Assembly (NCBI GenBank): GCA_023253625.1
Contig: JALRFY010000066.1
Span: 1 to 54,811, forward strand
Source of the DNA: Akkermansiaceae bacterium
GTDB taxonomy: Bacteria; Verrucomicrobiota; Verrucomicrobiia; Verrucomicrobiales; Akkermansiaceae
Reading direction: 5' to 3'
DNA: 54,811 bases
The notes under the pieces are model-generated. The model did no database searches. It was not told the origin of the DNA and saw only the letters and a program-made list of their open reading frames with translations. A program made the position numbers and the translations under genes. Shown here piece after piece: positions 20,667 to 45,280 of the stretch (within the stretch, counting starts at the first letter, position 1; each line of letters opens with the position of its first letter).

Positions 20667-20675
20667 GGCGGGAAG

Positions 20676-20703
20676 AGTTTTCAGTTGGAAGTTTTCAGTT
20701 TTC
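20676..20703. repeat. Heptad tandem repeat, unit AGTTTTC
   Basis: Four consecutive seven-base units read AGTTTTC, AGTTGGA, AGTTTTC, AGTTTTC. The block lies in the ilvB-ilvH gap. The same unit recurs at 45576-45596 in the microcompartment operon. Confidence 0.75.
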
Positions 20704-20741
20704 AAGAAGGGGCTTTGGGAGGTTCGGGGTTTCGTTTTCTT

Positions 20742-20769
20742 CCACTGAAAACTGAACACCGAACACTCG
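20742..20769. repeat. Heptad repeat, unit close to NNACTGA
   Basis: Consecutive seven-base units read CCACTGA, AAACTGA, ACACCGA, ACACTCG. This is a second, phase-independent heptad block in the same ilvB-ilvH gap. Confidence 0.6.
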
Positions 20770-24942: not shown

Positions 24943-24996
24943 ATACCGGGGATTCCTGCGCTCTCTTCCATGCCTGCGCTTCAAGTCAAGGGCCAT

Positions 24997-25102
24997 GGAG
25001 CGGCGAAACGTGTTCGCCGATGTCCATGAGATGACAATGAGATGAGTGGATGCGCCGGACATTGGCGATTCAAGGGCATCGGCGGACATGCTCCGCCGCT
25101 CC
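24997..25102. repeat. REPIN-like element, copy 1
   Basis: A 106-base imperfect palindrome. Each end, read inward, begins GGAGCGGCG and contains its own small hairpin (GGCG...CGCC on the left, GGCGG...CCGCC on the right). The two 26-base ends match as inverted repeats with about four mismatches. It lies between the convergent PHP phosphatase and xylA genes. A GGAG tetranucleotide plus a palindrome, arranged as an inverted pair, is the architecture of REP doublets (REPINs). Confidence 0.8.
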
Positions 25103-25138
25103 TTGAACCGCGCTTCGACCCCGGGATTTCGCGAAGCG

Positions 25139-27726: not shown

Positions 27727-27730
27727 CCAA

Positions 27731-27838
27731 GGAGCGGCGGAACGTGTCCGCCGGTGCGAATGAAATGCCCATGGACATGCATTCCCATCCGCACATGTTC
27801 CGCGCATTCACTCCCCGGCGATCATGCATCGCCGCTCC
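27731..27838. repeat. REPIN-like element, copy 2
   Basis: A 108-base imperfect palindrome with inward-facing ends beginning GGAGCGGCG. The left hairpin is GGCGG-AACGTGT-CCGCC and the right one is GGCGATCATGCATCGCC. It lies between the hpt fragment and the antitoxin gene. The left arm matches copies 1 and 3 closely while the centre differs, as expected for REPINs. Confidence 0.8.
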
Positions 27839-27891
27839 TAGAGCCAAAATTAACCGCTGGCGTTTTCCCTGAATTCAGCTATCCAAACCTC

Positions 27892-41341: not shown

Positions 41342-42814
41342 TCAGATGATGCGGAGGTTTTCGACGAGGACGCAGCGGCGGATGCGGGTGAAGGTTTTCG
41401 GGGTGGTGATGCCTTCACCGGTGGTGGTGGCGATGGAGTAGGAAAGATAGCCCTCGCCGCCGAGGCCCAGGCCGGCGACGGACGCGCCGTTCTTGACGAA
41501 GATGGTGGTGTCCATCTCCTTCGCCATGTAGGTCATGTGGTTCACATCGAGCGTATGGATGATGGCGGAGTGGCGGTAATTGTGCTCGGCACGCTTGGCT
41601 TCGCGCACGGCGGCCTCGAAGTCCGGGCAGGAAACGATGGGCATCATCGGCATCATCTGCTCCTCCTGGACGAAGGGGTGGTCGGCGTCGGTTTCCGCGA
41701 AGAGCATTTGTGTGCCGGCAGGGATGGATGCGCCGGCATGCCCGGCGAGTTTCGCGGGATCGGCCCCGACCAGCGCGCGGTTCACCGAGGCATGCGCACA
41801 TCCGCCGCCCTCGCCATCCTTGAAGGTGAAGGCCGCGGCGGTGAGGTTTTCAAGTTGCCGGGAGTTGATGCGCGCGGCACCGGCTTTCTCGAGTTCCGCA
41901 CAGAACCGGTTCATCACCGAGGCCACCACGAACACCGCCTTCTCGCCGATGCAGAGCAGGTTGTTGTCGAACGCACCGCCCTCGATGATGCCGCGGGCGG
42001 CTTTCGCGAGATCGGCGCTTTCATCCACCACCACGACCGGATTGCCCGGGCCGGCGCAGATCGCGCGCTTGCCGGATTTCATGGCGGCGTTGACCACGGC
42101 CGGGCCGCCAGTGATGGCGAGCAGGGAAATGAGCGGGTTTTTGCAGATGGCATCGAACGATTCGAGGGTCGGCTGCTCGATGGTGGTGATGAGATGATCA
42201 ATGCCGAGCTCGCGGTGGATCGCCTCGTTGTAGGCGCGCACGGCCATCGCCGCGCTGCGGGCACCGCCGGGGTGCGGGTTGAAGACGATGGCATTGCCGG
42301 CGGCCACCATGTTGATGACATTGCCGGTCAGGGTTGGCACCGAATGGGTGACGGGCAGGATCGCGCCGATCACGCCGAACGGCGCGTATTCCTCCAGCGT
42401 GATGCCGCCATCACCGCTCATGGCGTAGGGGTGCAGCCATTCGACACCCGGGACGTTCTTGGTGATCTGGAGCTTGGCAATCTTGTGATCGACCCGGCCG
42501 ATCTTCGTTTCCTCCATCTCAAAGCGTCCCCACGGCTCGGCATTGGAAACGGCGAGGTGCTTGACGATCTCGATCACCCTGGCGCGGCCGGCCATGCCGA
42601 GTTTCTTCAACTTCAGGTGCGCGTCGCTGGCGGCCTCGGCGGCTTTGGTCACGCAATTGAACACCCCGCGCTGGCCGCCACCGGAGGGCGAGGAACCATT
42701 GCACCCGCAGGATGCCTTGACCGCGGGAGCCGGGACAGCACCCTGCTCCGCGGTGAGACGCGCCACGACGGATTCGACAACGGAGCGGACGAGATCGGGA
42801 TCGAGAGTTTTCAT
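41342..42814 (-). CDS. Microcompartment CoA-acylating aldehyde dehydrogenase
   Basis: A 490-residue NAD-dependent aldehyde dehydrogenase of the EutE/PduP branch, expected to convert lactaldehyde to lactyl-CoA inside the compartment. The N-terminal helix MKTLDPDLVRSVVESVVARL is amphipathic and joined by a Cys/Gly/Ser-rich linker (ASCGCNGSSPSGGG) to the catalytic domain, the pattern of an encapsulation peptide. The catalytic cysteine is in AFDNNLLCIGEKAVFVV. AICAGPGNPVVVVDESAD and GEGITTPKTFTRIRRCVL are typical. The frame runs up to 43003 but the ATG at 42814 starts at the helix. No lactaldehyde reductase or alcohol dehydrogenase for NADH recycling is in the operon. Confidence 0.93.
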   Translation of the reverse strand: MKTLDPDLVRSVVESVVARLTAEQGAVPAPAVKASCGCNGSSPSGGGQRGVFNCVTKAAEAASDAHLKLKKLGMAGRARVIEIVKHLAVSNAEPWGRFEMEETKIGRVDHKIAKLQITKNVPGVEWLHPYAMSGDGGITLEEYAPFGVIGAILPVTHSVPTLTGNVINMVAAGNAIVFNPHPGGARSAAMAVRAYNEAIHRELGIDHLITTIEQPTLESFDAICKNPLISLLAITGGPAVVNAAMKSGKRAICAGPGNPVVVVDESADLAKAARGIIEGGAFDNNLLCIGEKAVFVVASVMNRFCAELEKAGAARINSRQLENLTAAAFTFKDGEGGGCAHASVNRALVGADPAKLAGHAGASIPAGTQMLFAETDADHPFVQEEQMMPMMPIVSCPDFEAAVREAKRAEHNYRHSAIIHTLDVNHMTYMAKEMDTTIFVKNGASVAGLGLGGEGYLSYSIATTTGEGITTPKTFTRIRRCVLVENLRII

Positions 42815-42849
42815 TCGATACGGAGCTAAATGACAATTTGGAGTTTTTG

Positions 42850-42886
42850 AACCACTGAAGCACTGAGAACCACTGAAAGCACTGAG
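42850..42886. repeat. Inverted repeat flanking GxxExxY gene (left)
   Basis: The segment contains CACTGA four times, spaced 8-10 bases apart. Bases 42850-42876 are the exact reverse complement of 43303-43329 (27 bases). It abuts the stop codon of the GxxExxY gene. Confidence 0.85.
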
Positions 42887-42887
42887 G

Positions 42888-43289
42888 TCAGGAATGTTTA
42901 GGCAGGTTGGCGATGCGTTTGATTTGGAGTTTGGCGTGTTTGAAATTGATGAGCAGCCCGATTTCCAGACCGGTGATGTTGAGATAACCAAGCATCTGCG
43001 CAATGTGGGTATCGTTGAATGAATCGACGACTTTCAAATCCACGATGATCTTCCCATTGACGATCAAATCCGGTATCAGATTGCCGATAAAGTGATTCTT
43101 GTAGTGCACTGGGTAAGCCGTTTGTTGGCTGAAGTCCTTGGAACGTGATGCAAACTCGATACACATCGCCCGCTCATACATCACTTCGTCGAGTCCGGGA
43201 CGAAGCAGCGCATGCACTTCAGCCGCCGCCGCAATAATGGCAGCGGTCAGTTCGGAATGCGGATACCGCTGATCGACAAATCCCTTCAT
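42888..43289 (-). CDS. GxxExxY-family protein (PD-(D/E)XK-like)
   Basis: A 133-residue protein of the GxxExxY family, named for the motif seen here as GLDEVMY. IPDLIVNGKIIVDLKV is the PD-(D/E)XK-nuclease-like core; Asp replaces the usual Glu before the Leu-Lys. The C-terminal MLGYLNITGLEIGLLINF is highly typical. Its biological role is unknown. It is plainly foreign to its surroundings: lower GC, unrelated to microcompartments, and bounded on both sides by a CACTGA-rich inverted repeat. It splits the operon between the third BMC-P and the aldehyde dehydrogenase genes but is co-oriented, so read-through transcription is possible. Confidence 0.92.
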   Translation of the reverse strand: MKGFVDQRYPHSELTAAIIAAAAEVHALLRPGLDEVMYERAMCIEFASRSKDFSQQTAYPVHYKNHFIGNLIPDLIVNGKIIVDLKVVDSFNDTHIAQMLGYLNITGLEIGLLINFKHAKLQIKRIANLPKHS

Positions 43290-43292
43290 CTA

Positions 43293-43329
43293 TTCAGTGT
43301 CCTCAGTGGTTCTCAGTGCTTCAGTGGTT
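43293..43329. repeat. Inverted repeat flanking GxxExxY gene (right)
   Basis: Contains TCAGTG four times. Bases 43303-43329 are the exact reverse complement of 42850-42876. The outermost bases beyond the 27-base match (TTTTT-type on the far sides) are also similar. Confidence 0.85.
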
Positions 43330-43353
43330 GAAAAAATCGTCTATTCCCAAACC

Positions 43354-43662
43354 TCACCCGCCACGATAGAGGGTTTTTCCATGGACCTCGACGCGGTCGA
43401 TGATGGCGACGATGGCAGCGTCCACGGGGATGGACTTGAGGCCCTGGGCGTTGCGGGCGGAGCTGCCCTGGCAGAACATGACCAGTTCGCCCTCGCCGGC
43501 GCCGACGGTGTCGATGGCGACGATGGTGTTGGAGCCGTCCTTGAACTTGGACGGATCCTTGTCGTCCACCAGTTTCGGACGGAGCAGGAGAAGCTTCCTG
43601 CCGACCATTTGCTCGTCCTTCCTGGTGGCGACGACTTGTCCGATGACTTCCGCGAGGAACAT
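43354..43662 (-). CDS. BMC-P shell vertex protein (EutN/CcmL) 3
   Basis: A 102-residue EutN/CcmL vertex protein starting MFLAEVIGQVVATRKDEQMV. GRKLLLLRP, TIVAIDTVGAGEGELVMFCQ, GSSARNA and DAAIVAIIDRVEV are the standard blocks, and this copy is the most canonical of the three. The ATG at 43662 is the family start; a longer frame begins at 43695. The GxxExxY insertion lies directly downstream. Confidence 0.93.
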   Translation of the reverse strand: MFLAEVIGQVVATRKDEQMVGRKLLLLRPKLVDDKDPSKFKDGSNTIVAIDTVGAGEGELVMFCQGSSARNAQGLKSIPVDAAIVAIIDRVEVHGKTLYRGG

Positions 43663-43681
43663 GGGCGTGTGGTTTGGCCAG

Positions 43682-43709
43682 CGGTCAACGGTCAACGGTC
43701 AACGGTTGA
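43682..43709. repeat. Heptad tandem repeat, unit CGGTCAA
   Basis: Three exact seven-base units CGGTCAA are followed by CGGTTGA, in the gap between BMC-H 3 and BMC-P 3. Confidence 0.75.
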
Positions 43710-45250: not shown

Positions 45251-45280
45251 ATTTCAAATTTGAAATTTGAAATTTCAAAT
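45251..45280. repeat. Heptad tandem repeat, unit ATTTSAA
   Basis: Four seven-base units ATTTCAA, ATTTGAA, ATTTGAA, ATTTCAA fill the gap between BMC-H 2 and the kinase. Because the units are alternately self-complementary, the block also contains two perfect 16-base palindromes. Confidence 0.8.

Follow-up and report, generated by a model that had tools for sequence, protein, structure and literature searches.

The window analysed here is a stretch of 54,811 nucleotides (nt) from an Akkermansiaceae bacterium (Verrucomicrobiota; contig JALRFY010000066.1, assembly GCA_023253625.1). It raises the question of why a gene for a GxxExxY protein should sit between inverted arrays of CACTGA in the middle of a microcompartment operon. 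On balance we favor the answer that this feature is a member of a widespread class of operon passengers of about 0.5 kb, in which iterated inverted arms enclose one small gene without an obvious promoter of its own. The best reading of its history is that of a passenger similar to the rRNA intervening sequences (IVSs), gained sporadically, long inherited, and frequently lost. The class is apparently undescribed so far.

The window element is compact (Table 1). Its arms are 45 nt each with CACTGA units spaced by 8-10 nt, the longest exact inverted stretch being 27 nt (AACCACTGAAGCACTGAGAACCACTGA, starting at 42850), and they rank first among the inverted pairs within 600 nt in the window. The GxxExxY open reading frame (ORF) is set 2-5 nt inward of both arms and is the sole recognised gene inside the cassette, where no transposase was found. 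Its GC content of 49.5% is 13 points lower than that of the window (62.6%) and falls among the lowest 0.7% of 402-nt windows. The EutN, GxxExxY, and microcompartment aldehyde dehydrogenase (ALDH) genes share a strand, and the cassette interrupts their operon. The original prediction of a compact repeat-gene-repeat unit, low in GC, bracketed by a 27-base exact inverted repeat and inserted into a co-oriented microcompartment operon, agrees with these data, and the same anatomy was found around most GxxExxY genes examined.

Membership of the GxxExxY family is clear, as the window protein matches TIGR04256 with an E value of 3e-37 and 127.5 bits (cut-off 35) over profile positions 1-115 of 116, and PF13366 (PDDEXK_3) with an E value of 2e-34. 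A sequence search of solved structures with this protein gave no matches. The nearest solved fold to its AlphaFold2 model (pLDDT 90.8) is Cas4 SSO0001 (4ic1; Z 9.3 across 100 residues), and lambda exonuclease also resembles the model (Foldseek E value 7.5e-4), which supports the PD-(D/E)XK-like fold proposed earlier. Catalytic-type residues are present at E35, D74, D84-x-K86, and Q98, and the columns of the name-motif G, E, and Y and the later D, K, Q, and Y are 97-100% conserved among 148 sequences. The window protein thus has both the fold and the catalytic-type residues (E, D, K, and Q columns) that characterize the PD-(D/E)XK superfamily, and it shares the series E...D...[DE]xK...QxxxY with the Cas4 and lambda exonuclease nucleases. 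It differs from them in its length of just 133 aa, in an aligned identity of 11-15%, and in the lack of adjoining cas or recombination genes. The GxxExxY protein most likely acts as a metal-dependent nuclease. No GxxExxY matches were found in the phage records searched.

The cassette anatomy recurs across phyla. To assess bracketing, the two flanks of a gene were searched for their best inverted pair, with a threshold score of at least 26. Eighty-five percent of 147 full-length GxxExxY loci in Verrucomicrobiota were bracketed compared to 0.14% of shuffled flanks, while flanks paired across different loci reached a score of 26 in 8.5%. In a second set of 32 other GxxExxY loci, of which 30 came from genomes of the same phylum as a Sedimenticola genome and nearly all are from Pseudomonadota, the corresponding values were 84% and 0.16%. 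Arms are also present on a Bacteroides plasmid, where GxxExxY lies between radA and a FAD protein gene. The median outer-to-outer length of the cassette is 490 bp in 119 relatives. Tandem CACTGA microsatellites occur in these genomes, as would be expected if low-complexity sequence happened by chance to surround an ordinary operon gene. This explanation is refuted by the shuffled flanks and the permutation test described below, as well as by a reversed-pattern control with 0-1 matches per genome, and its probability is negligible.

GxxExxY arms consist of three to four iterations of a 9-10-nt motif with the core RC-NNA, and in both sets RC-NNA units are 2-3 times as frequent as after shuffling. 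Arm wording varies from one element to the next, whereas the left and right arms of an element agree, and this holds even for elements at shared junctions. The 27-base repeat therefore failed as a general mark of GxxExxY cassettes, as the common grammar is worded differently in each of them. The left and right arms of the same element paired with a summed score of 2639, as opposed to 1579 (sd 96, maximum 1893 of 500) when right arms were permuted within junctions, which indicates that change in one arm was accompanied by change in the other, and likewise among the units of an arm. Mapped onto a tree of 125 proteins, arm wording took 26 changes versus 59 when labels were shuffled (none of 200 shuffles was as low), and host genus took 51. 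Physical linkage accounts for part of this co-variation and of the linkage between wording and protein. We infer that uniform units and matched arms call for recognition, a pairing constraint, or conversion, and these sequence comparisons suggest that the cargo protein probably reads the arms.

The same plan is seen around a second type of cargo. Among four-helix-bundle (4HB) genes (TIGR02436) in the same genomes, 21 of 30 were bracketed at a score of at least 30, and no shuffle scored above 28. In their arms the period is strictly 7 nt and the RC-NNA grammar is missing, and the cassettes often share operons with GxxExxY cassettes. No Rfam matches were found in 20 4HB loci or across positions 42500-43700 of the window. 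In Coxiella burnetii, the IVS is selfish, measures 428 nt, is closed by a terminal stem of 28 bp, and contains an S23/four-helix ORF of the 4HB family; its 5' end carries heptameric repeats, and RNase III excises it (PMC4990558). In bacteria of the candidate phyla radiation (CPR), four-helix-type ORFs are found in insertions of 16S as well as 23S rRNA genes (PMC11270868).

The rRNA IVS is the closest described kind to the GxxExxY cassette. Both measure about 0.4-0.5 kb, enclose a single small ORF between terminal inverted repeats, have short iterated repeats near the 5' end, and are sporadically distributed, and the terminal repeats of the window cassette are able to form a closing stem. In contrast to 23S rRNA IVSs, the window cassette lies between the EutN and ALDH protein genes and not in an rRNA gene, its ORF matches PF13366 only and is of the PD-(D/E)XK rather than the S23p/four-helix type, and the period of the GxxExxY arm motif is 9-10 nt compared with 7 nt. 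Cassettes of the four-helix type in operons bridge these two kinds. Literature searches did not retrieve a description of the cassette, and the consulted portions of the two papers that name GxxExxY, out of 5.4 million open ones searched, describe none. A broader hypothesis, which we put forward tentatively and with some doubt, is that GxxExxY and 4HB (IVP) genes are two forms of a single class of selfish cassettes at operon junctions, undescribed and spread across phyla. Both types of cargo protein would read a family-specific code in the arms (9-10-nt RC-NNA or 7-nt heptads) and drive insertion into intergenic sites of expressed housekeeping operons, and the rRNA IVSs would be a special case that happened to be noticed first.

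The Coxiella precedent of RNase III excision (PMC4990558) also fits a passenger acting through RNA only, in which RNase III cuts the arm stem from the polycistronic mRNA, the protein has an RNA target or can be dispensed with, and rare movement is due to some host or retro-element enzyme. The presence of heptad-armed 4HB cassettes in operons, the complementarity that arms keep while their sequence changes, and the folding of the window element RNA (z = -7.75 versus 100 shuffles) are consistent with this explanation. However, sense-strand mismatches in 119 Verrucomicrobiota arm pairs favor A.C over G.U (153 vs 77, p 6e-7), opposite to selection for a sense stem, though the second GxxExxY set does not show this bias (25 vs 28). 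Since it also leaves the strictly conserved nuclease site unexplained, we consider the explanation unlikely. In 4HB arms, A.C mismatches numbered 30 and G.U mismatches 15. As the Verrucomicrobiota bias was not repeated in the second set, G.U wobble was abandoned as a sign of RNA-level selection and no strand claim is made.

Placement in operons follows the sense strand. Longest-ORF calling is unreliable at high GC, and the direction of neighboring genes was thus assigned by a codon model, which made the right call in 150 of 150 trials with its own training genes. In 109 of 119 loci both neighbors run in the same direction as GxxExxY, 8 loci are at direction changes, and 2 are antisense to both neighbors. 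Host junctions include nuo, metH, pheS-pheT, and hisS-aspS. The outer arm ends (TTTAACC, TTGAACC) place a stop triplet at the edge in 39 of 68 cases with a clear start, and in genome G082 the nuoH reading frame enters the element and ends within it. The 41 nuo regions compared, whose frequencies are biased as they were partly picked because matches lay there, contain 15 GxxExxY and 21 4HB cassettes at various junctions, all (36/36) oriented with the operon. Of 269 nuo junctions, 190 are short and empty. One region (L157) harbors five cassettes in one direction, in the order nuoD-4HB-nuoE-nuoF-4HB-nuoG-GxxExxY-nuoH-GxxExxY-nuoI-J-K-L-4HB-nuoM. Occupancy varies even within one genus, where an element occupies nuo G/H in G058, G066, G087, and G073, whereas G095, G022, and G050 have an empty junction. 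Elements worded GACAGAATT or GACAGGATT, most of whose proteins fall in one clade, are found at F/G, G/H, H/I, or K/L of nuo in different genera, and gene-less elements of these wordings at H/I, I/J, or K/L. Some nuo junctions of 470-920 nt have neither a GxxExxY nor a four-helix match (L236 D/E, L237 F/G, L240 F/G, L245 L/M, L256 I/J, L257 H/I) and possibly hold other cargo.

A nuclease gene at conserved housekeeping genes, with frequent loss and degenerate copies, is reminiscent of homing endonuclease genes, mobile introns, and inteins. Unlike these, the GxxExxY cassette lies between genes without an intron or intein, and unrelated clades share one junction. Many same-junction orthologues would suggest one site per clade, yet the GACAGAATT-type clade occupies at least four nuo junctions (F/G, G/H, H/I, K/L).

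The junction that holds the window cassette was followed in a family-level search of 97 genomes, 36 of which contain an EutN gene. Within the genus of the window, L031, L033, L034, and L035 have an empty EutN-ALDH junction of about 6-70 nt, a comparison that had been proposed as a check, while L032 carries a CACTGA GxxExxY cassette and L036 gene-less hairpins of the CACAGATT type. In another genus, L043 and L053 carry CACTGA cassettes and L046 a different GxxExxY gene (about 60% identity) with CACAGATT arms. The site is thus variable and filled by at least two wordings. Orthologous CACTGA elements occur here in at least two genera with a divergence resembling that of the flanking genes, which indicates that much of their distribution goes back to ancient vertical descent combined with loss and not to continued hopping.

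Overall, the loci sort into 21 shared junctions of 2-15 members each, such as the metH halves (J1), EutN-ALDH (J2), hisS-aspS (J3), and pheS-pheT (J10), and 53 singletons. Distant GxxExxY clades at J3, J4, J7, and J8 imply repeated occupation of one junction. Same-junction orthologues span genera at J0, J1, and J2, and frequent hopping of every copy was dropped as an explanation when such orthologues were found. They would also be compatible with a domesticated regulatory module, whose protein would bind to the arms around its gene and modulate the host operon, under vertical descent and loss instead of mobility. We regard this as very improbable, as the same operons lack the cassette in many genomes, cargo of one type can take the place of another at the same junction, and there is no tie to one pathway.

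Six GxxExxY matches are present in the genome of the window. The other copies, four substantial ones (GAACCGCCAAGACGCGAAGACGC, AACCACAGATGAACAGGATGGACGCAGATGG, AACCACGAAATTCACGAAAGATCACGAAA, and AACCGCGGCGGCGCGAAAGCCGCAAAGG) and one remnant (AACCACGAATGGACAGCAATGAACACGAAT), are bracketed too, each with a different wording, and several of them adjoin aminoacyl-tRNA synthetase or metH genes. CACTGA arms are also found in this genome as short gene-less hairpins, which in part bears out a caveat of the original prediction, that the repeats might occur mostly without GxxExxY genes. However, the gene-less hairpins on C76 and C183 have outer ends (AACCACTGAAGCACTGAG) identical to those of the window cassette and look, from their sequence, like derivatives of the gene-bearing form. 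In sharing exact outer ends with a gene-bearing copy they resemble miniature inverted-repeat transposable elements (MITEs). The cassettes differ from MITEs and from repetitive extragenic palindromes (REP) with their REP-associated tyrosine transposases (RAYT) in having no transposase gene, arms made of iterated motifs, and no target duplication seen, and the lack of an encoded transposase also distinguishes the window cassette from a DDE insertion sequence or transposon. On a Prevotella nigrescens plasmid (L277), the GxxExxY gene is flanked on each side by an apparently complete gene-less hairpin and not by a single arm.

Gene-less hairpins with identical outer ends may alternatively point to mobilization in trans, by a separate transposase that recognizes the arms, with the GxxExxY or 4HB cargo kept for another benefit such as defense or repair. 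That two unrelated cargo families have a common cassette plan and common junctions would fit this as well. Nevertheless, the grammar differs by cargo family, the wording follows the protein clade, and no transposase gene lies inside the cassettes, which makes this scenario rather improbable.

Several observations weigh against an IVS-like passenger moved by its own protein. In 282 of 307 same-junction pairs the flanks have higher identity than GxxExxY, and most copies therefore look like vertically inherited, fast-evolving orthologues. No recent transposition was found among the loci compared, and no target-site duplication or exact high-identity empty site could be demonstrated at junctions that are short and diverged. 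The sole near-identical pair at two sites of one genome (L214 and L219) is truncated inside the arms. The linkage of wording and protein could arise from physical linkage alone. Finally, general mobilization of both cassette types by a nuclease cargo is ruled out by the four-helix protein, which lacks a nuclease fold. The L214 and L219 copies, from genome G073, are 98% identical and lie at different sites, L214 being truncated within the arm and before the gene end.

For the IVS-like operon passenger that we favor, three steps may be envisaged, given here by falling confidence. The cassette would be tolerated because it lies between stop and start codons with outer arm ends that often carry stop triplets, and its stem may be excised from the mRNA as in rRNA IVSs. 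The cargo protein would recognize the arms, as DNA or RNA, and thereby keep the units uniform and both arms matched. The GxxExxY nuclease might cut DNA at its own arms or at the target, upon which the cassette would be copied into new junctions by repair or transposition. Judged from sequence, mobilization of the element by its own GxxExxY protein is plausible. Once inserted, the cassette would be inherited, decay to a gene-less hairpin or scar, and then be lost.

Table 1. Features of the cassette and its operon neighbors in the window
Feature	Position	Strand	Remarks
GxxExxY gene	42888..43289	-	133 aa, PD-(D/E)XK (Cas4/lambda-exonuclease-like) fold
5' (upstream) inverted-repeat arm	43294..43338	-	iterated CACTGA units; outer end ...CAACCACTGAAGCACTGAGAACCACTGA
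3' (downstream) inverted-repeat arm	42841..42885	-	89% complementary to upstream arm
Complete cassette	42841..43338	-	498 bp
EutN/CcmL (BMC-P pentamer) gene, upstream operon neighbor	43354..43695	-	
Microcompartment ALDH gene, downstream operon neighbor	41342..42814	-	

Other repeats were seen in the window. A gene-less hairpin at 20675-20768 contains TTTTCAGT heptads of the type found in 4HB cassette arms, and heptad tandem arrays adjoin the microcompartment genes, (CGGTCAA)3.6 at 43682-43706 and (ATTTCAA)4.3 at 45251-45280, which may be single-arm remnants of heptad cassettes. A hairpin pair at 24994-25105 and 27730-27839, with arms GGAGCGGCG...AACGTGTCCGCC, represents another dispersed family, and a related sequence, GGCGGACATGCTCCGCCGCTCC, lies close to a CACTGA hairpin in L016.

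The metH cassette site is where the gene splits between its homocysteine and pterin domains. Among L317-L346, metH is split in most genera examined and intact in the sampled genomes of g10, g13, and g15 and in G030 of the mostly split g7. The split is also seen without a cassette in several genera, and from these sequences the cassette is not proven to be its cause.

These findings give GxxExxY, a family of unknown function, a testable genomic role, since most examined copies are cargo of an inverted-repeat cassette lodged in operons, often housekeeping ones. Through the common cassette plan, the family is linked to the long-unexplained 23S rRNA IVSs. The cassettes account for a recognizable class of dispersed repeats in environmental bacteria, and the splitting of metH at a site that often hosts them suggests a route by which operons may gain small genes.
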